From Anaerocolumna chitinilytica (GTDB lineage Bacteria > Bacillota > Clostridia > Lachnospirales > Lachnospiraceae): a DNA stretch of 64,000 nt. A program made the translations under genes and the position numbers. Shown piece by piece: positions 45,402 through 53,928 of the stretch (within the stretch, counting starts at the first letter, position 1; every line of letters starts with the position of its first letter). Location of the stretch: NCBI RefSeq assembly GCF_014218355.1, contig NZ_AP023368.1:2484001-2548000 (forward strand), written 5' to 3'. The notes beneath the pieces are model-generated. The model ran no database searches, was not told the DNA's origin, and saw only the letters and a program-made list of their open reading frames with translations.

Positions 45402-46112
45402 ATGGAACAGCTACTGACAGTTTTGATAGTGGAAGATAGTTTGGAAATTGTAGAATTAATTAAATTGTATCTGGAAAATGAAAGGTTCAATATTTTGATA
45501 GCCGGGGATGGAAGAAGGGCGTTACAATATGTAACGGAAGAAAAAGTAGATCTGATAATTCTGGATATTATGATCCCAATTATTAATGGCTATGAAGTTC
45601 TAAAGAAAGTGAGAGAAAAGCATAACCTACCCATTATCATATTATCATCAAAAAACATGGACAACGATATTATACTTGGACTAAATCTGGGAGCAGATGA
45701 TTATGTAACCAAGCCTTTTAATCCGCTGGAGCTTATGGCAAGAGTGAAAGCTCAGCTTCGCAGGTTTCATAAGCTGGGAGCAGGAGAGATAACAGAAGAA
45801 GAGCCGGATATAACGGTTAAGGAGCTAATGTTAAAGTGCAGGGAATGTCAGCTGTTAAAAAGAGGAAACTATATTGACCTTACCTATATGGAATATAGGC
45901 TCCTTAAGTTCCTGATGTCAGACCCAGGGCGGGTATACACAAAGAAACAGCTATTTACCCATGTATGGGAAGAAGATGTTTTATATTCCGAGAATACCAT
46001 TATGGTATATATAAGTAAGCTTCGAGATAAGGTGGAAGATAACCCGAAGGAACCAAAATACATAAAAACGGTAAGAGGGTTGGGGTATAAATTTGAAGAA
46101 AACCAAAATTAA
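45402..46112 (+). CDS. OmpR-family response regulator of the peptide locus
   Basis: A 236-residue regulator starting at ATG 45402. Receiver domain with ED near residue 11-12, phospho-acceptor Asp in LIILDIMIPIING (near 55), DDYVTKPF; winged helix from about 130 with LTYMEYRLLKFLMSDPGR, TIMVYISKLRDKVE and IKTVRGLGYKFEE. It overlaps the kinase gene by about 20 bases, so they are translationally coupled. A TTGACA lies 110 bases upstream but no good -10 follows. It probably drives the peptide operon 1.7 kb downstream, where half-sites lie in 11-base register. Confidence 0.93.
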   Translation: MEQLLTVLIVEDSLEIVELIKLYLENERFNILIAGDGRRALQYVTEEKVDLIILDIMIPIINGYEVLKKVREKHNLPIIILSSKNMDNDIILGLNLGADDYVTKPFNPLELMARVKAQLRRFHKLGAGEITEEEPDITVKELMLKCRECQLLKRGNYIDLTYMEYRLLKFLMSDPGRVYTKKQLFTHVWEEDVLYSENTIMVYISKLRDKVEDNPKEPKYIKTVRGLGYKFEENQN

Positions 46113-47502
46113 AAAAACCAATATCTTATTAATAAAGAATTTTATTATGTTTTCCATACTTATCATTATTCTCTTTCAGATTTCTTCAATGGTTGCCAAA
46201 AGTATCCTGGAGGATTATGTAATTCATAATGCAGGTCAATATTTTGCAGGAGGTATTGCAAAGACAGATTATAAGAAGATTGATATTACAAAGATCGAAA
46301 AAATCGGCGGTTTTCTCTACATATTGAATGATAAATTACAGGTAGTATATAGCAAAGGAACGAATGCACCTAAACGAGAAAGTTTAACCCCAGAAGACAT
46401 CTCTCTTCTGGTAAATGGTGAATATGAGGGAAAACAGGGAAAGTTGTATGCTTCCATGGCGAGTTTTCAGGGGGATGACGGCAGAACCTATGTCTGTCTT
46501 GCCTGTATACCCGCAGATAAGGTACAGATTACATCCACAATCTTAAATGTTTCCGATGTGGGTTCACAGTTTGTGGGTATTATGCTGTTTACAGTGGTAC
46601 TGTTTTTAGGAGGTTACTGGGCTACCGTTGTATTACTCGCACGGCAGATTAATGTAAAAGTCACAAAGCCTATCTATGTTATAACAGAGGCCTTAGGACG
46701 CGTCCGGGAAGGTGAATATAATACACGCCTTGAATTGGAGGCTGATAATGAATTTATCTATATCCGGGATGCTTTTAATTATATGATTCAGGAGCTTGAA
46801 TACTTAAAAGAAGAGAATCTCAAGGAAGCAGAAAACAGAACCAGGCTCTTATCAGATATCGGACATGATATAAAGACTCCGATCACTGTTATTCAGGGTT
46901 ATTTAACTGCCATCTTAAATGGAGATATTAAAGAAGGAGCGAAAAGAGAAGAGTATTTAAAAGCTTGTTTTAATAATACGATGCACTTAACAGAGTTAAT
47001 GCAGATGCTACTAGATTATACAAAATTTGACCGGGCTGATTATAAACTTGATATAAAAAGAGTTGAGATTACAGAACTTGTAAGAAAGATTATTATTGAT
47101 TATTATCAGATAATGGAAGAAAAAGCACTTTCCATCGAAATAAACATTCCGGAGGAAGATATCTTTGCGGAAGTGGATGAAAAAGAAATGAGAAGAGCAA
47201 TTGTGAACCTGTTAAATAATGCAATTACACATAATGAACCCGGAACAGAAATCAATGTGACCATCTTAAGGAATGAGTATCTTTCACTTGTAATTGCTGA
47301 TTCGGGGTATCCAATACCAGAGATCCTAAAGCAGCATATTTTCGAACCTTTTGTCTGCGGGGAGGCTTCCCGCAGTGACAGCAGCCATAATGGTCTGGGG
47401 TTATCTATAGTTAACCGTATTATCAGTATGCATCATGGAAACATAAGGATTGAAGATAACTGGAGAGATTATACCAAAGCCTTTATTATTGAATTGCTGT
47501 AA
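46093..47502 (+). CDS. Sensor histidine kinase of the peptide locus
   Basis: A 469-residue membrane kinase. The frame opens at TTG 46093 inside the regulator gene (GGGTTGGGG upstream); ATG 46147 is an alternative that would cut into the first helix. Helix 1 (about 15-38), an extracytoplasmic sensor of about 115 residues, helix 2 (about 155-182), HAMP region, then SDIGHDIKTPITV with the phospho-His (near 258), NLLNNAITH and GLGLSIVNR. There are only two membrane helices, so it is not a peptide-pheromone receptor of the polytopic AgrC type. It ends before a strong terminator. Confidence 0.92.
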   Translation: MKKTKIKKTNILLIKNFIMFSILIIILFQISSMVAKSILEDYVIHNAGQYFAGGIAKTDYKKIDITKIEKIGGFLYILNDKLQVVYSKGTNAPKRESLTPEDISLLVNGEYEGKQGKLYASMASFQGDDGRTYVCLACIPADKVQITSTILNVSDVGSQFVGIMLFTVVLFLGGYWATVVLLARQINVKVTKPIYVITEALGRVREGEYNTRLELEADNEFIYIRDAFNYMIQELEYLKEENLKEAENRTRLLSDIGHDIKTPITVIQGYLTAILNGDIKEGAKREEYLKACFNNTMHLTELMQMLLDYTKFDRADYKLDIKRVEITELVRKIIIDYYQIMEEKALSIEINIPEEDIFAEVDEKEMRRAIVNLLNNAITHNEPGTEINVTILRNEYLSLVIADSGYPIPEILKQHIFEPFVCGEASRSDSSHNGLGLSIVNRIISMHHGNIRIEDNWRDYTKAFIIELL

Positions 47503-47597
47503 GATAACCCGGGTTCTGCCAGTATGCTAAATTGCATTATAAATGAAAAGTTTACGATAAGTGGCATTAATGCTAAATTATATAAAATTCTTAACTG

Positions 47598-47638
47598 AAA
47601 AAACCGTCAAGGAGTATATAACTTCCTGGCGGTTTTTA
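47598..47638 (+). terminator. Intrinsic terminator of the two-component genes
   Basis: AAAACCGTCAAGGAG pairs with CTTCCTGGCGGTTTT around TATATAA and ends in five T. It separates the regulator pair from the peptide operon, which therefore needs its own promoter. Confidence 0.85.
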
Positions 47639-47702
47639 TTGTATAACCACTTATTGCGACAGATAATTCGAAAGATAAATGGCAAAAAAAGGTAAATATT
47701 AC

Positions 47703-47759
47703 AGATTAAGGTAATTTTAAGAAAGGAAATGTCTTAGATTAAGGTTTATCTGATAAACT
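47703..47759 (+). promoter_or_regulatory. Probable response-regulator-dependent promoter of the peptide operon
   Basis: TTAAG half-sites start at 47706, 47717 and 47739, that is 0, 11 and 33 bases, the helical register used by OmpR-type regulators. Two of them lie in a perfect AGATTAAGGT direct repeat (47703-47712 and 47736-47745). A possible -10 (TAAACT, 47754-47759) has no acceptable -35 at the right spacing (GTCTTA), and the last half-site sits near the -35 position, as expected for an activator-dependent promoter. Confidence 0.55.
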
Positions 47760-47794
47760 AAAAACATCTTAAAGCAGGAAAGGAGGTAAACATC

Positions 47795-47884
47795 ATGTTA
47801 TTTAGATCTAAAAAAGCAGTTGCAGCTCCTGGCTGTGTAAGTGTCGGTTATTACATTTGTATAAGCTATGGTAAGACCTACTAA
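47795..47884 (+). CDS. Two-cysteine RiPP precursor peptide, 29 residues
   Basis: ATG 47795 follows the strongest ribosome site of the region, GAAAGGAGGTAAACATC. The peptide has a short basic leader (R4, K6, K7), an AVAA stretch at residues 8-11 and a C-terminal half PGCVSVGYYICISYGKTY with Cys14 and Cys22 and five aromatic residues (four Tyr, no Trp). It is too short for ordinary gene cut-offs. It is followed by a hairpin and a radical SAM/SPASM gene, the standard layout of a ribosomally made, radical-SAM-modified peptide. The two Cys seven residues apart are the likely thioether donors, with SVGYYI or SYGKTY as acceptors. Product class is unknown; known sactipeptide or ranthipeptide families were not recognised. 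Confidence 0.75.
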   Translation: MLFRSKKAVAAPGCVSVGYYICISYGKTY

Positions 47885-47945
47885 AAATTAGTTTGGTTTA
47901 CATAGTTTTTGTGTTGTCCGAGTGTATTCACCTGCTTGTCTTAAT

Positions 47946-47983
47946 ATGACCATGAGAGCTGTACAGCAGATTCTCATGGTCAT
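47946..47983 (+). other. Hairpin between peptide and modifying-enzyme genes
   Basis: Twelve-base perfect arms ATGACCATGAGA (47946-47957) and TCTCATGGTCAT (47972-47983) with a loop containing GCTGTACAGC. No T run follows. In RiPP operons such hairpins commonly act as partial terminators or mRNA stabilisers that let the short peptide message exceed that of the enzyme genes. Confidence 0.7.
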
Positions 47984-48021
47984 GTTAGAGACGTAGGAAA
48001 GAATTTTAGAGGGGGTATACA

Positions 48022-49251
48022 ATGCATAATTATCTTAATAAAGATGTGGAATTATTTCAGATAGATGGAATCTCCATCCTTGGTAACTTTCAAAATGGGG
48101 CGGTTATCGGATTGGATGAGGAAGGAAAAGACTATATACTTAATAACCAAATGATTGATGAAACAGAAGTAATCAGCAGCAATATTGCAGAGCTGAGAGA
48201 GGCGCTGCTTGAATTAGATTTTTATCAGCACAAGACAGAAAAAGAGATAGATGCAGCATATCTGCATGTTACGGATAGATGCAATCTCCATTGCCTTGGC
48301 TGCTATTCATTTGTCGACAGCCGCAATGAAAAAAAAGACCTAAGTACCAATGACTTTTTTTACATACTGTTGTCCTTACGTGAAGCCGGCATAAAAAAAC
48401 TGGTTATTTCAGGAGGGGAGCCCTTTTTACGGAGAGACTTAGGAGAAATTCTAAGATACGGCAAGGAAGTATGCAATATCCAATATATAACGGTTATTAC
48501 CAATGGTACTTTGGATTTTAGTTTATACGAGAGTTCAATTCCCTATATGGATGAAATTAATGTATCAGTAGATGGGTTTAATAAGGATACCGAATTCATA
48601 CGGGATAAAGGTATTATGCCAAAGGTAATAGAGACGATTAAGAAATTAAAGGAACGATTAACAGTCAATCTGATAGTTACATTACATAAAAAGAATAAGG
48701 ATTATATGGAGGATTACAGAGCCTTTGCAGCATATCTGGGTGTGAATTATTCTTTTAGCATCTTTACGGCAGAGCCGGAAAATGAGATGTTTCGGGATTA
48801 TGTATTAACGGATGAAGACTTGTTTTCGATAGAAAAGAAGCTTATGGATTTGAATGGTGAGGTTTCTTTGCAGGACTTCCCTGTTGATGGCTTCAATCTG
48901 GTATGCAGAAAGAAATGTGAAGCGGGAAATAAGCTTATTAGTATAGCAGCAGATGGTACAGTTTACCCGTGTCATATGCTTCACAAAGAGCAGTTTGCTT
49001 TAGGAAATGTCTTACGGCAAAGTATAAGTGACATTGTTTTTAGAGAAGGCAATCCTTTTCAGCATTTATCTGTGGATAATATGAAAGGATGCAGAAACTG
49101 TAATTATAAGTATTTGTGCGGTGGTGGCTGCAGAGGCAGAAGTTATTTATATTATTCAGTACTGGATGAAAAAGATGCATATTGCACCATGATTAAAAAT
49201 TATTATTCAGATATCATGGAAAATATTGCTGCAGCAGCTGAGAACAAGTAA
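48022..49251 (+). CDS. Radical SAM/SPASM peptide-modifying enzyme
   Basis: A 409-residue enzyme starting at ATG 48022 behind GAGGGGGTATAC. Residues 1-75 form a small N-terminal domain that could bind the leader. The radical SAM core begins with CNLHCLGC (Cys 87, 91, 94), which holds the SAM-binding [4Fe-4S] cluster, and has VISGGEPFLRRD. The SPASM region (about 290-405) has SIAADGTVYPCHMLHKEQFA, then CRNCNYKYLCGGGCRGRS and a final DAYC, enough cysteines for two auxiliary clusters. Such enzymes install thioether or C-C crosslinks in peptides. It should modify the 29-residue peptide encoded 138 bases upstream. Confidence 0.92.
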   Translation: MHNYLNKDVELFQIDGISILGNFQNGAVIGLDEEGKDYILNNQMIDETEVISSNIAELREALLELDFYQHKTEKEIDAAYLHVTDRCNLHCLGCYSFVDSRNEKKDLSTNDFFYILLSLREAGIKKLVISGGEPFLRRDLGEILRYGKEVCNIQYITVITNGTLDFSLYESSIPYMDEINVSVDGFNKDTEFIRDKGIMPKVIETIKKLKERLTVNLIVTLHKKNKDYMEDYRAFAAYLGVNYSFSIFTAEPENEMFRDYVLTDEDLFSIEKKLMDLNGEVSLQDFPVDGFNLVCRKKCEAGNKLISIAADGTVYPCHMLHKEQFALGNVLRQSISDIVFREGNPFQHLSVDNMKGCRNCNYKYLCGGGCRGRSYLYYSVLDEKDAYCTMIKNYYSDIMENIAAAAENK

Positions 49252-49264
49252 AGGGAGTGTTAAA

Positions 49265-50140
49265 ATGGGATGCTTGGAAATTACAGAGGTTAGTAAGACT
49301 TATGGTGAAAAGGCAGCGTTGACTGACTTTTCTATGACTGTTACAGGTGGTGAAATTGTTGGGTTAATCGGTAAGAACGGTGCAGGCAAAACTACCTTAT
49401 TAAATTGTATTTCTGGTAATATCCATCCCATACAAGGTACTGTGCTTTATGATGGCTGTAATATCCTAAAACAGGGGGCAGTACGAGGAAAGTTCGGTAT
49501 ATCGATTGAAGCCTGTTTTGTTGATTATCTGAATACCTATGAAAATCTGGCTTTGTTAATGAAGGCGGGGGGGATTCATGATAAAACATATATTCAAAAG
49601 GCTATTCCGGAAGTACTTCAATTAGTGGGACTGGGGGACCAGATTAAAAAGCATGTCAGTTCTTTTTCTTATGGCATGAAACAAAGATTAGGATTTGCTC
49701 AGGCTCTTCTTAGCGGCACGGAAATGCTTATATTGGATGAACCTTTTGCAGGGCTGGATGTTGAAGGACGAGCTTTGGTAAAAGACCATATTCGAAGACT
49801 GGCGAAGGAAAATAACATAGGAGTTATTTTCTCCGATCATAATCTGGACGAAGTGAATGAGCTTTGCCACCGTGTGGTATGTATGAAGGAGGGCATCAAG
49901 GTATATGATGGAATCCCTGAGAATGAAACAAAGTATGAGGTCTATGTAGATGAACTAGGCGAAGATCTTATTCTTAAGATGAGAAAATTTTGTGGGATTA
50001 CGATGGATCTTGATAGAAGAGTGCTGTATTTTCCGGGCAAGTTAGAACTACATGAAATACTGAAAACTGCGGGAGCTTATTCCACCATATTAAAAATCCG
50101 TTCTATTGAAAATGAGCTGGAACAGATTTTGCTAAATTAG
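49265..50140 (+). CDS. ABC-2 type transporter ATP-binding protein
   Basis: A 291-residue ATPase; ATG 49265 is placed by AAAGGGAGTG, 13 bases after the radical SAM gene. Walker A GKNGAGKTT (near 39), signature FSYGMKQRLGFAQALL, Walker B LILDEPFAGLD and an H loop in SDHNLDE. The C-terminal 70 residues are extended. It resembles the CcmA/NatA/bacitracin-type ATPases that give self-resistance or export. It pairs with the permease that follows, giving a transporter separate from the exporter at the end of the operon. Confidence 0.92.
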   Translation: MGCLEITEVSKTYGEKAALTDFSMTVTGGEIVGLIGKNGAGKTTLLNCISGNIHPIQGTVLYDGCNILKQGAVRGKFGISIEACFVDYLNTYENLALLMKAGGIHDKTYIQKAIPEVLQLVGLGDQIKKHVSSFSYGMKQRLGFAQALLSGTEMLILDEPFAGLDVEGRALVKDHIRRLAKENNIGVIFSDHNLDEVNELCHRVVCMKEGIKVYDGIPENETKYEVYVDELGEDLILKMRKFCGITMDLDRRVLYFPGKLELHEILKTAGAYSTILKIRSIENELEQILLN

Positions 50141-50181
50141 TATTAAATCCGAAAGTATTTTTTACTATGCAGGAGGTTTAC

Positions 50182-50946
50182 ATGAGATATTTATTTGAAA
50201 TTGAATTATATAAAATTCTTAAAAGAAAAGACTTTTGGATTTTAAATACCATGATAATTATCCCGATATTTTATGCCATAGGAGTGGCAACTCATTCATC
50301 TATTGTTACATATGAGGGGACGGAAAAATCCTATGGGTTAAAATATTTTGTAGATATGTATTCTTTTATCTACATGATTTTCATTTACTTCTTTCTGCTG
50401 TCCATGAGCGTGATTCGATCTTTGCGAGGGGAGCTTGAAAATAAAAGTATAAGGTTATATTCACAGCGTATTAACAGCAGAAAGAAGATATACCTATCAA
50501 AAAATCTTGCTATGGTTGCAGCCTTTAGTTTGGTAACTTTGTTCGTTGCAATGGTATCAATTCTGGTATATTACACTTTGGTAATGCAAAGGACTGACAT
50601 TTCTGAGGCGAGTTTTATTCATGGTGATGAATTAGGGTATCTATTTGCAAACTTTTTTAGCGTCTATTTATTCTTTGTCTGGTCAATCTTCTATAGTTTT
50701 ATGCTGAGTGCTTATTTAAAATCAGGTACTGCACTTGGAATTTATGCATTGACTGTAGTAGCAGGCATGTACATAAAGGAATTTCCTTATGTAAAGTTTC
50801 TCTCACCGGCTTATTATACACAAAGAATAATGGATACTTCACAAGATGCTATTTGGATGCTGTTGGCTATGACAGCGGTTACAGTGTTCTATTGTCTGCT
50901 TTTTTATATCGCAGGCAAAAACAAACTGGAAAAGAGTGATATATGA
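50182..50946 (+). CDS. ABC-2 type permease
   Basis: A 254-residue membrane protein; ATG 50182 is placed by CAGGAGGTTTAC, while the ATG at 50167 lies before the ribosome site. About six helices: one near 22-42, MYSFIYMIFIYFFLLSMSVI, NLAMVAAFSLVTLFVAMVSI, ANFFSVYLFFVWSIFYSFML, then GIYALTVVAGMYI and a C-terminal helix. It has the layout of NatB/LanE-type ABC-2 permeases and pairs with the preceding ATPase, probably for producer self-protection. It overlaps the CPBP gene by four bases. Confidence 0.85.
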   Translation: MRYLFEIELYKILKRKDFWILNTMIIIPIFYAIGVATHSSIVTYEGTEKSYGLKYFVDMYSFIYMIFIYFFLLSMSVIRSLRGELENKSIRLYSQRINSRKKIYLSKNLAMVAAFSLVTLFVAMVSILVYYTLVMQRTDISEASFIHGDELGYLFANFFSVYLFFVWSIFYSFMLSAYLKSGTALGIYALTVVAGMYIKEFPYVKFLSPAYYTQRIMDTSQDAIWMLLAMTAVTVFYCLLFYIAGKNKLEKSDI

Positions 50947-51566
50947 TGAACAGGACTGTGCAAGTAAAAAGCTCCTCAATAGATGGAGTAATGTTTCTGG
51001 GATTGATAATTATCACACCGATGACAGCAGTTCTGCTAATTAGTTTTATTTTCTTTGCTGTATTTAAATCCGGTAATGATTGGATAGAATTATTTCAGAC
51101 CTGGGCAGTTATGGGATGTTCCTTTGTTTTACTTCCAATTCTAATACTTAATAAGAAATATAAGATAACGTGGGAGGATATTGGAGTTAGAAGACTTAAA
51201 ATAGCAGAAATCCTTGCAGGGATTTTTCTTCTCACATTGCTTTATTGCTATTTAACAGGTAAAACGGACAGTTACAGCCTCTTGTTATTATCTCTTCAGA
51301 CATTGGCCGTGGCTTTCTGCGAAGAGATATGGGCCAGAGGGATATTATTTTTTGTAATTCGTAAATTAACAACGAATCGAATAGCGATTATCCTGCTTTC
51401 CAGTATAATCTTTGCTTTTTTCATTCATATCAACAGAGGCTTTTACAATAATTTAGTATACCGTCTGCCTGGTGCGATCTTAATGGGAGTGGTATATGAC
51501 AGAAGCAAAAAGATTCATTATTCAATAATGGTACATTTTGCTTATAACATGTTAACTAGTATTTAA
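50943..51566 (+). CDS. CPBP-family intramembrane metalloprotease
   Basis: A 207-residue polytopic protein starting at ATG 50943 (or 50946), overlapping the permease stop. The CPBP/Abi active site is intact: CEEIWARG (EExxxR near 124-129), a His in FAFFIHINRG and HFAYNML near the end. In peptide-natural-product loci CPBP proteases are thought to cut leader peptides or to give immunity. The exporter here has no C39 peptidase domain, so this is the best candidate for removing the leader of the 29-residue peptide (inference). Confidence 0.88.
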   Translation: MMNRTVQVKSSSIDGVMFLGLIIITPMTAVLLISFIFFAVFKSGNDWIELFQTWAVMGCSFVLLPILILNKKYKITWEDIGVRRLKIAEILAGIFLLTLLYCYLTGKTDSYSLLLLSLQTLAVAFCEEIWARGILFFVIRKLTTNRIAIILLSSIIFAFFIHINRGFYNNLVYRLPGAILMGVVYDRSKKIHYSIMVHFAYNMLTSI

Positions 51567-51593
51567 AAGATGTTTATCGTGAAAGGAGTAAAA

Positions 51594-52028
51594 GTGAAAA
51601 AGAATATAGTTTATGTTATTTCATTTTTAGCACATGCAGTTCTGTTAGCAATATTTATGGCAGTTAAGAACAAACTGGATGTCTTTACCTTGATTTTATT
51701 CATGGGTTTACCAATTATAGTAAGCGGAATATTGGCTTTTGTAGGAACTAAAATGCAGAAAGAACATAACAGTATGAAGGAAATTCCTACTGTCATACCT
51801 TATGTGGGAATTAATGTTCTTTATTGGATATTTGTAAATGTTCAGTTAAATACAGGAAATACCTTGAATACAATCTACGAAACCAGCAGGCGGTATAATT
51901 CTGATATGATAGAGGTTTCCACGAATAATTCGCCTGTGAGCGGTATGATTCTATTAGTGCTTGTAAGCTTTGTCCTATGTTATTTTATGGTGAAGCATGC
52001 AGGGAAAAGAGATAAAATAGAACAGTAA
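51594..52028 (+). CDS. Small four-helix membrane protein
   Basis: A 144-residue protein; GTG 51594 is placed by GAAAGGAGTAAAA, and the ATG at 51570 lies before this ribosome site. Four hydrophobic segments: NIVYVISFLAHAVLLAIFMA, LILFMGLPIIVSGILAFV, VIPYVGINVLYWIFVNV and MILLVLVSFVLCYFMV. Between helices 3 and 4 a polar loop (TGNTLNTIYETSRRYNSDMI) should face outside. No family is recognised. In this operon it is a candidate immunity protein. Confidence 0.75.
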   Translation: MKKNIVYVISFLAHAVLLAIFMAVKNKLDVFTLILFMGLPIIVSGILAFVGTKMQKEHNSMKEIPTVIPYVGINVLYWIFVNVQLNTGNTLNTIYETSRRYNSDMIEVSTNNSPVSGMILLVLVSFVLCYFMVKHAGKRDKIEQ

Positions 52029-52083
52029 AAAAACCAGTTTTGAATTATGTACCTATATCAGAACATGAGGGGAATGATACCAG

Positions 52084-53928
52084 ATGAGCTTATTTCATCA
52101 AAAATATAAATTAATCATTGTTATGTTCTGGCAAACATTATATTGTTTTTCCAATGTAATGTTTGCCTTTATTTTAATGAGAATTACTGACGCTCTGACC
52201 CAGGGTAATATGGCAGCTTTTCGGTTAGGCTTGCTTTATGCGTTCATTGTGGTCTGCACTCAGGTTATTACTACGGTGATATCCATGACCTTAAAAGTGA
52301 AGTATGTAAGAAACTGTATGTATCATATTAAAGCCGAATCCTTTAAGGGACTCCTTCGTATGAATTATCACGATTTTAATAAAGAGAATCTCACCCACTA
52401 CCTGACTTATTTTACGAATGATTTAGGAATGTTAGAGAACAGTTATATTCAGGTAACCGTAGATATGCTGGGACAGATACTCTTGATACTTATTACATGT
52501 ATTGCTTATCTTACTATTAATCCCCTAGCCTTTGCTGTTGTTGCTATCAGTATTTTTTTGTCCATGGTAATACCTGTTTTCTTTACCGGTATTATGCAAA
52601 GGGCAAATGATGCTTTTGTAGCGGCAAATGAACTTCTTCTATCCAAAACCAAGGAATATCTCCAAGGGTTTGAAGTAATTAAAGGTTTTCAAATTCAAAA
52701 GGTTATTGAAAATAAATTTATGAAAACCATAAAGCAAAGAGAAGATAAATGTGCTGATTTTAGTAATAAAATGATTCTTGGGAACACTATTGTGGCATTT
52801 ATAAGTGTCATAATTATACTGTTGATTTTCTTAGCCGGTGGCGCTTCTGTCATAGCCGGAAAGATTACCATCGGTGCCCTGATTGCCCTGGTTCAGCTTT
52901 CCAACAATATGATTGCACCTATAACAGATGTACTTTATGGCATAAACGAAAGAAATTCTGTTAAGAATATCAAAGATAAATGTTTGGAATTAATGAATAC
53001 AGGTGAGCAGTCTGGTTTGGGAAAACAATTATCCTTAGATGAGCAGCTTAGTTTTCAAGAGTTGGTATGCTCAGAAGAACAGATATCAAAAGAATATGGA
53101 TCAAAAGAATATGGATCAAAAGAATATGGATCAGATGAACATGGATCAGGAGAACATAGTTTAGAAGAACTTAGTTCTTCTGAGATTAATATTTCACCTG
53201 TGATGACTGTAAAAGAAATTGACGAGAAAATTAATAGTATCAAGTTATCTAATATTAATTTTACTTATGACGGAAGTGAGGAACCAGCTTTATCGGATGT
53301 CACACTTTCTCTGGAGAAAGGTAAAAAGTATGCTCTTGTGGGGAAAAACGGATGCGGAAAAAGCACACTGGCACGAATAATTGCGGGAAGGCTTAAGGGA
53401 TTTTCGGGAGAACTAACATATAACAATATATCTGCAGAGAGAGCGGCAGATAAATGTATCGAAAATCTATCCTATATCGGTCAGGAGGTTTTCCTGTTTT
53501 TTGAGTCAGTTGCTGATAATCTATCTTTGTTTGGAAAATATAGTGCCAGATCCGTGGATGAGTTGGTAAATCGTATGAATATTGAAGACTTGCTTTTTAA
53601 AGATTCTGATCCGGATAGAGAGAGCTTGCCATTATCGGGAGGTGAAAAGCAAAAAATCGCCATAGCAAGAACCATTCTTGCGGATAAGGAAGTGATTATC
53701 TGTGATGAGATGGATTCCGCACTTGACAATATCAGTAAGAATAATCTTACAAAGATGATAATCTCACAAAAAGAAGCAACCTGTCTTGTCATTACGCATA
53801 ACGTCAATCAAAATCTTGACGAATTCGATGAAATAATTGTGATGGATAGAGGGAGAATTACAGAACAGGGAAGTTTTCTGGAACTCTACCAGAAGAAAGG
53901 GATTTTTTATGAACTTCTAGAAGAATAG
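52084..53928 (+). CDS. ABC exporter (permease-ATPase fusion) with expanded repeat linker
   Basis: A 614-residue protein starting at ATG 52084 behind GAGGGGAATGATACC. Residues 1-300 are a six-helix type IV exporter domain with no N-terminal C39 peptidase. Residues about 305-385 are an unusually long acidic linker with five SKEYG-like tandem units. The ATPase domain has Walker A GKNGCGKST (near 422), signature LSGGEKQKIAIART and Walker B VIICDEMDSALD. It is probably the exporter of the modified peptide, as a homodimer. It is the last gene of the peptide operon. Confidence 0.92.
   Translation: MSLFHQKYKLIIVMFWQTLYCFSNVMFAFILMRITDALTQGNMAAFRLGLLYAFIVVCTQVITTVISMTLKVKYVRNCMYHIKAESFKGLLRMNYHDFNKENLTHYLTYFTNDLGMLENSYIQVTVDMLGQILLILITCIAYLTINPLAFAVVAISIFLSMVIPVFFTGIMQRANDAFVAANELLLSKTKEYLQGFEVIKGFQIQKVIENKFMKTIKQREDKCADFSNKMILGNTIVAFISVIIILLIFLAGGASVIAGKITIGALIALVQLSNNMIAPITDVLYGINERNSVKNIKDKCLELMNTGEQSGLGKQLSLDEQLSFQELVCSEEQISKEYGSKEYGSKEYGSDEHGSGEHSLEELSSSEINISPVMTVKEIDEKINSIKLSNINFTYDGSEEPALSDVTLSLEKGKKYALVGKNGCGKSTLARIIAGRLKGFSGELTYNNISAERAADKCIENLSYIGQEVFLFFESVADNLSLFGKYSARSVDELVNRMNIEDLLFKDSDPDRESLPLSGGEKQKIAIARTILADKEVIICDEMDSALDNISKNNLTKMIISQKEATCLVITHNVNQNLDEFDEIIVMDRGRITEQGSFLELYQKKGIFYELLEE
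53086..53160 (+). repeat. Five-unit 15-base tandem repeat inside the exporter gene
   Basis: Units of TCAAAAGAATATGGA begin at 53086, 53101 and 53116 (identical), then two diverged units (TCAGATGAACATGGA and TCAGGAGAACATAGT). In frame they encode SKEYG, SKEYG, SKEYG, SDEHG and SGEHS, residues 335-359, in the linker between membrane and ATPase domains. Identical units suggest recent or unstable expansion. Confidence 0.95.

Follow-up and report, generated by a model that had tools for sequence, protein, structure and literature searches.

The locus and its precursor gene

We analysed a 64,000-nucleotide stretch (hereafter the window) of the 5.62-Mb, single-contig genome of Anaerocolumna chitinilytica (NZ_AP023368.1, positions 2,484,001 to 2,548,000), in which a gene set at 45402-53928 centres on a 29-codon gene lying before the gene for a radical S-adenosylmethionine (SAM) enzyme with a SPASM domain. 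As can be read from the sequence itself, the small gene belongs to a family of precursors of ribosomally synthesized and post-translationally modified peptides (RiPPs) with a shared motif, a shared enzyme architecture and a recurrent gene set; the family is widespread in many bacteria and so far unnamed, but not categorically new. The features of the locus are as follows.

45402-46112, + strand: OmpR-type response regulator (Response_reg and Trans_reg_C by Pfam), a putative regulatory partner
46093-47502, + strand: histidine kinase (HisKA and HATPase_c by Pfam); a related kinase lies immediately upstream in the Anaerococcus porci locus L011
47780-47786, + strand: ribosome-binding site AAGGAGG, 8 nt 5' of the ATG
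47795-47884, + strand: precursor peptide gene, 29 aa, with Met-Leu-Phe (MLF) start and the units Cys14/Gly18 and Cys22/Gly26
47936-47992, + strand: long hairpin between precursor and enzyme genes, bounds set by eye, no T-run
48022-49251, + strand: radical SAM/SPASM peptide maturase, 409 aa (PF04055 7.4e-20, PF13186 3.7e-10)
49265-50140 (alternative start 49226), + strand: ABC-2-type ATPase
50167-50946, + strand: ABC-2-type permease (ABC2_membrane_2 5.5e-5, under the Pfam cut-off)
50943-51566, + strand: CPBP/Rce1-like membrane protein (PF02517 8.5e-14; motifs EEIWAR and HFAYN)
51570-52028, + strand: membrane protein, 152 aa, with relatives in cassettes L011, L012, L013 and L030
52084-53928, + strand: ABC exporter (ABC_membrane and ABC_tran, i.e. 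transmembrane and ATPase parts)

The small gene with its strong ribosome site, the enzyme gene behind it and the neighbours named by an earlier, sequence-only reading are all present as that reading described them. The closest relative of the 29-residue peptide, 75% identical, is encoded in A. porci, likewise upstream of the enzyme, and a search of the window's own genome with a family profile that includes the window peptide returned one strong place (E 3.3e-13), the next match standing at E 1.04. Among 42 gene copies surveyed for translation signals, all start with ATG and 38 carry AAGGAGG, AGGAGG, GGAGG or AAGGAG at the usual spacing. The precursors gave no meaningful match in NCBIfam or Pfam and no named family among the results fits them, in agreement with the earlier statement that the peptide matches no recognised precursor class; the precursor profile reached at best E 0.11 against the PDB. 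A plasmid search with the peptide returned 74 records, all low-scoring (those listed being SopA/Soj at E ~7), and these were set aside as chance matches.

Precursor and enzyme genes are separated by 137 nt (47885-48021), and because of the long hairpin this stretch folds far better than its shuffled versions (minimum free energy -49.9, z -6.95; 0 of 200 shuffles as good). The hairpin is perhaps an mRNA stabiliser or a partial attenuator and could raise the amount of precursor over that of the enzyme.

A precursor family in two phyla

We searched proteins for relatives of the maturase, scoring 8,000 candidates, of which 1,359 were found and the best 120 of these listed. A single-enzyme query against genome contigs returned no relative; an enzyme-alignment query returned at least 80, of which the best 80 were kept, and viral contigs gave a single distant match to the enzyme. 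Small open reading frames (ORFs) with a ribosome site near each enzyme were selected by a motif taken from the first matches and then by a rule demanding an MLF-like start or the Cys-Gly pattern. This search beside related enzymes, which the sequence-only reading had put forward as a check, recovered a family peptide on the enzyme's strand in 34 of the 37 loci with usable flanks, window included; L015, L041 and L098 yielded none, L041 being counted as a miss although its contig stops 86 nt past the enzyme ORF. Left out of the counts were L017 (whose contig starts only at the place expected for the precursor, judging from its relative L018), L053 (an enzyme fragment), L074 (contig ending in the gene) and L101 (enzyme interrupted; the peptide family profile was not run there), and duplicates were dropped (L008/L016, L009/L019, L010/L100 and L094/L099, while L002, L007, L092 and L095 repeat the window).

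Many precursor genes lie directly 5' or 3' of the enzyme gene. Others stand further off: 1.0-1.8 kb upstream in L016 (Candidatus Galacturonibacter soehngenii), L018, L026 and L070, about 2 kb upstream in L100, whose enzyme reads in two frames, and 5 kb downstream in L021, while L014 has two precursors, the first 6.2 kb upstream of the enzyme and the second close behind it. Three or four precursor copies stand in a row in L019 (9281-9750; a Lachnospiraceae metagenome-assembled genome), L021 (12976-13380) and L094 (879-1430), identical in L021 and diverse in L019 and L094.

Because peptides had been selected partly by eye, we built profiles leaving out one locus at a time, and the proposed peptide ranked first among the 16-60 aa ORFs of its locus in 32 of 33 loci, although six E-values were weak (0.03-0.16). 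The exception, L030, had been accepted by eye on its MLF start, ribosome site and place. Loci of less closely related radical SAM enzymes, 45 in number with 17,252 ORFs, gave no convincing match: the Actinomycetota profile got no lower than E 0.27 and the Bacillota profile no lower than 4.0; the first full profile had reached 0.38 there and 0.09 for an unrelated ORF in L012. The signal between phyla is weaker: a Bacillota-only profile recovered the right peptide (E <0.2) in 4 of 17 Actinomycetota loci, and in the reverse test 12 of 16 Bacillota loci gave theirs with an Actinomycetota-only profile.

A fresh test came from Coriobacteriia, where the L039 enzyme has matches at E <= 1e-50 in 44 of 246 genomes, that of L039 included. 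Loci were taken from the 30 best matches, one of which (L102) is L039 itself, and among the remaining 29 (L103-L131) an MLF peptide gene lies directly 3' of the enzyme in 28, L121 being the sole one in which none was found. One of these peptides (L131) was found by eye and missed by the profile, and four others had poor E-values (0.41-8.8) yet came first in their loci; 22 of the 28 are new and six identical to ones already known. Members occur in Coriobacteriia, Lachnospiraceae, Enterococcus, Staphylococcus, Bacillus, Paenibacillus and thermophiles such as Caldicellulosiruptor. The radical-SAM RiPP assignment made earlier for the window now has comparative evidence in a conserved small-ORF family whose extent goes far beyond a single locus.

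In public protein data, 33 proteins among 146 candidates match the precursor profile at E <= 10, and those whose source is named (e.g. Thermoanaerobacter, Staphylococcus caeli, Bacillus chungangensis and Caldicellulosiruptor kronotskyensis) are called hypothetical or uncharacterised. A 'bioinformatic atlas' of radical SAM RiPPs may hold the family as an unnamed group. Our search of the open-licence PMC literature found no paper recognisable as describing it, and portions of two older genome-mining papers whose subjects include Anaerococcus, Thermoanaerobacter and Caldicellulosiruptor (PMC3132745, PMC4289311) treat other radical SAM clusters and show no such peptide.

The signature runs from an N-terminal Met-Leu-Phe to Cys-x3-Gly, a short spacer and a second Cys-x3-Gly. 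In a 40-sequence alignment Met1, Cys14 and Gly26 are invariant and Leu2 and Phe3 occur in at least 90%; across 67 distinct precursors, which like all our motif counts are related by descent and not independent events, 59 have the MLF start. Gly stands at +4 of both Cys in all 55 two-Cys precursors of this set and in all 12 two-Cys peptides among the 22 new ones, giving a fixed Cys-x3-Gly spacing in 67/67, whereas the two Cys of the 55 lie anywhere from 8 to 13 residues apart. Coriobacteriia precursors are 21-28 residues long and often have one Cys; these single-Cys forms (21-25 aa) have Gly at +9 plus Gly at +4 or +5 (9/9 in the first set, L030 and P0151 left out, and 8/8 in the fresh set). 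For this tally Cys within the first eight residues were uncounted, P0141 was dropped, and L026 (three core Cys) and the fresh L109 and L111 peptides (three clustered Cys) fall outside both groups; for one peptide of L014 the sequence used begins at an inner TTG, an ATG start giving MIF being just upstream. The sequence-only reading was borne out in singling out Cys14 and Cys22, both conserved, but not in linking them to a Tyr-rich core: Tyr is absent from 24 of the 67 precursors, and the proposed acceptors shift from Tyr to Gly.

Formyl-Met-Leu-Phe is the classical neutrophil chemoattractant tripeptide. Host recognition of this start (encoded at 47795-47803) was considered as a driver and dropped, since soil and thermophilic species keep MLF as well, which makes it unlikely as a cause.

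The maturase and the proposed rings

Both PF04055 and PF13186 score above cut-off for the window maturase, which has the radical SAM cluster at C87/C91/C94 and SPASM Cys at 299, 317, 357, 360, 366, 370 and 388. In an alignment of 37 enzymes, C87, C91, C94, C317, C357, C360, C366 and C388 are present in all and C299 and C370 in 36. Residues 1-75 fold like a RiPP recognition element (RRE), a PqqD-like winged helix. The best solved relative over the full length, by PDB profile and by fold, is the thioether maturase CteB, SkfB, the sactisynthase of the sporulation killing factor (Skf), being the second profile match in the PDB. Clustering with sulfatase maturases or other non-RiPP SPASM families had been named earlier as a possible refutation; the thioether maturase comes first over the full length, but the core fold of sulfatase maturases is close as well. 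Neighbouring NCBIfam models include StsB, WgkB, ScmE, DynA and PapB, none near its cut-off: StsB (NF045574), through which the enzyme was compared with that of streptosactin, gives 99.4 bits against 625, which does not place the maturase in the StsB family, and PapB (NF047865) and the SCIFF model (TIGR03974) give 72 against 340 and 65 against 425 bits.

That Gly invariably stands at +4 of each Cys points to a bond from the Cys sulfur to an alpha-carbon; an acceptor Gly, which has no side chain, would allow only such a bond. Known systems offer precedents. In passages of PMC8172795, streptosactin (GggA/GggB, of the GGG subfamily of streptococcal radical SAM RiPPs) has two small rings, unnested and closed by S-Calpha bonds, Cys31-Gly34 and Cys25-Ser28 (another passage prints Cys15); it shares with our locus two Cys and a SPASM radical SAM enzyme, but its Cys-x2-acceptor motifs (Ser, Gly) differ from Cys-x3-Gly, which would make the rings proposed here one residue larger, and it is under Rgg/SHP control according to part of PMC13361665, whereas the window has two-component genes. 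PapB closes Cys-x3-Asp/Glu rings, and in-line rings are possible (abstract of PMC9413430); the repeated Cys-x3-acceptor motifs of its ranthipeptides resemble those here, but our acceptor would be Gly, without a side chain, and the precursors have no invariant Asp/Glu. Given the common Cys/Gly+4 residues, the Gly acceptor and these two precedents, we therefore favour, at a probability of roughly 60%, a sactipeptide-like RiPP with two unnested Cys-x3-Gly sactionine rings.

Further comparisons concern enzyme and leader. CteB, the SCIFF maturase, shares the RRE, radical SAM and SPASM parts with the window enzyme (22% identity over the fold alignment), but a SCIFF precursor has 45 residues with six Cys among them (as given in passages of PMC7738495) and the window precursor two in 29. 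SkfB has a twitch and not a full SPASM domain, and sactipeptide leaders span 8-29 residues (both in passages of PMC8326336), so that the earlier remark that the whole peptide is shorter than most leaders was overstated. The MLF start, about ten residues before the first Cys, is a natural candidate for contact with the RRE. In microcin C synthesis, MccB has a domain that we take to be an RRE reading the peptide N-terminus. This domain has the same fold as the N-terminus of our maturase, and the structure of MccB with the tiny N-formylated MccA (title of 6om4) shows that such a fold can occur in an enzyme working on a very small formylated peptide, but enzyme class and product are different and the likeness is one of recognition alone.

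In the order of steps that we infer, the RRE-like domain would hold the MLF end of the precursor while the SPASM enzyme would abstract hydrogen from the alpha-carbons of Gly18 and Gly26, joining Gly18 to Cys14 and Gly26 to Cys22 in two small unnested rings with a loss of 4 Da. For the Bacillota, the window included, a leader of about 12 residues may be cut off before or while the ABC exporter carries the product out; the producer may be shielded by the ABC-2 pair, by the CPBP and small membrane proteins, or by all of these, and the two-component system probably controls the operon.

The product may have an antibacterial or a signalling role, and here lies the strongest competing view: a modified signalling peptide, not a bacteriocin, might be sensed by the two-component system in Bacillota or by a DUF2975/HTH_26 pair in Coriobacteriia and induce its own cassette, which would suit either ring topology. 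This is consistent with the OmpR-type regulator and kinase in the window, the kinase in L011, and the LytTR/GHKL pairs beside L014, L018, L020, L021 and a Streptococcus salivarius plasmid cassette, as well as with the fresh Coriobacteriia loci, where a DUF2975-like gene (26/29) and an HTH_26 gene (29/29) come after enzyme and peptide and no exporter match was found within flanks of about 1.5 kb. A regulator is not, however, near every cassette: L012 and L013 have no adjacent OmpR-type regulator, none having been found for L013 and that of L012 lying about 6 kb away on the other strand. Two-component-type regulators are also usual for bacteriocins, and we regard a signalling role as possible but doubtful.

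A nested arrangement, with Cys14-Gly26 and Cys22-Gly18 as in a sactipeptide hairpin and single-Cys forms keeping only the outer ring, is somewhat less probable still. Two points tell in its favour: the single-Cys forms of both sets keep the far Gly (+9) while the nearer one shifts between +4 and +5, which keeps the nested alternative in contention, and the hairpin is the usual sactipeptide topology (in a passage of PMC8326336). The constant spacing within Cys-x3-Gly and the variable distance between the two Cys nonetheless suit local rings better. That the modification is no thioether, but C-C links, epimers or another change, with Cys and Gly serving otherwise (disulfide, turn), is distinctly unlikely: the neighbouring NCBIfam models span many chemistries, but after Met1 the invariant positions are Cys and Gly alone, and epimerisation is impossible at Gly. 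It is scarcely credible that the enzyme acts on some other substrate, as a sulfatase-maturase-like or cofactor enzyme beside an incidental ORF, since the precursor family recurs across two phyla and in the fresh loci, the enzyme has an RRE-like domain, and a Pfam scan found no sulfatase among the window's cassette genes.

More speculatively, and with the odds against it, the family may form a RiPP class that spans two phyla and whose precursors are near-minimal (21-40 aa): the RRE would read N-formyl-Met-Leu-Phe as the whole leader signal, Cys-x3-Gly sactionine rings would be formed, and the DUF2975/HTH_26 pair of Coriobacteriia would serve as receptor or immunity protein and regulator. The compact rule of MLF and twice Cys-x3-Gly describes a family whose genes of 21-40 codons are easily missed by gene finders. 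Small precursor and single enzyme suit in vitro study of what directs a SPASM enzyme to a Gly alpha-carbon and of RRE function with a leader of about ten residues, and the single- and double-Cys forms are natural variants with which to separate nested from unnested rings.

Cassette types and neighbouring genes

In Bacillota the usual companions of the enzyme are ABC-2 genes and a CPBP gene; a small membrane protein and an exporter are often encoded there too. L011 repeats the gene order of the window, as do L012 and L013 except that their precursor lies 3' of the enzyme. Enzyme, DUF2975-like membrane protein and HTH_26 regulator occur together in most loci of L103-L131 and L024-L043, the DUF2975 name resting on weak Pfam matches (best 1.6e-4, under cut-off), and in the 29 fresh Coriobacteriia loci, within flanks of about 1.5 kb, an ABC-2-like ATPase was found in 2 and a CPBP gene in none. 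L027, from Actinomycetota, has a Bacillota-like gene set instead.

Within the window, ATG 49265 is the likelier start of the ABC-2-type ATPase than TTG 49226, judging from the sequence. The CPBP/Rce1-like protein, with its EEIWAR and HFAYN motifs, could be a protease, perhaps one that removes the leader as the sequence-only reading proposed, or an immunity protein; the Skf cassette likewise has a CAAX-type protein and an ABC pair. A text search of a review on RiPP proteases (PMC10885120) found no CAAX, Rce1, SkfC or Abi. The NCBIfam/Pfam scan gave no C39 peptidase match in the exporter. An MsaC identity for the 152-aa membrane protein was not used, as the model gave 24 bits against a cut-off of 45 and, among ten relatives, matched only that of L030 (17 bits).

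The exporter gene contains a 15-bp tandem repeat of about seven copies (53071-53177), which yields an inserted repetitive segment, abundant in Glu, Gly, Ser and Tyr, that sits between the transmembrane and ATPase parts; compared with the window, the exporter ORFs are 60 residues shorter in L012 and 45 shorter in L013. Downstream of the A. porci cassette stands another radical SAM gene, more distantly related (L011, 9212-10306). The S. salivarius plasmid cassette (L101, NZ_CP018188.1, 3870-13148) has CPBP, exporter, ABC pair and LytTR/GHKL genes, and its radical SAM gene, annotated merely as a SPASM remnant, lies beside an ISSag10-like element and lnu(C).

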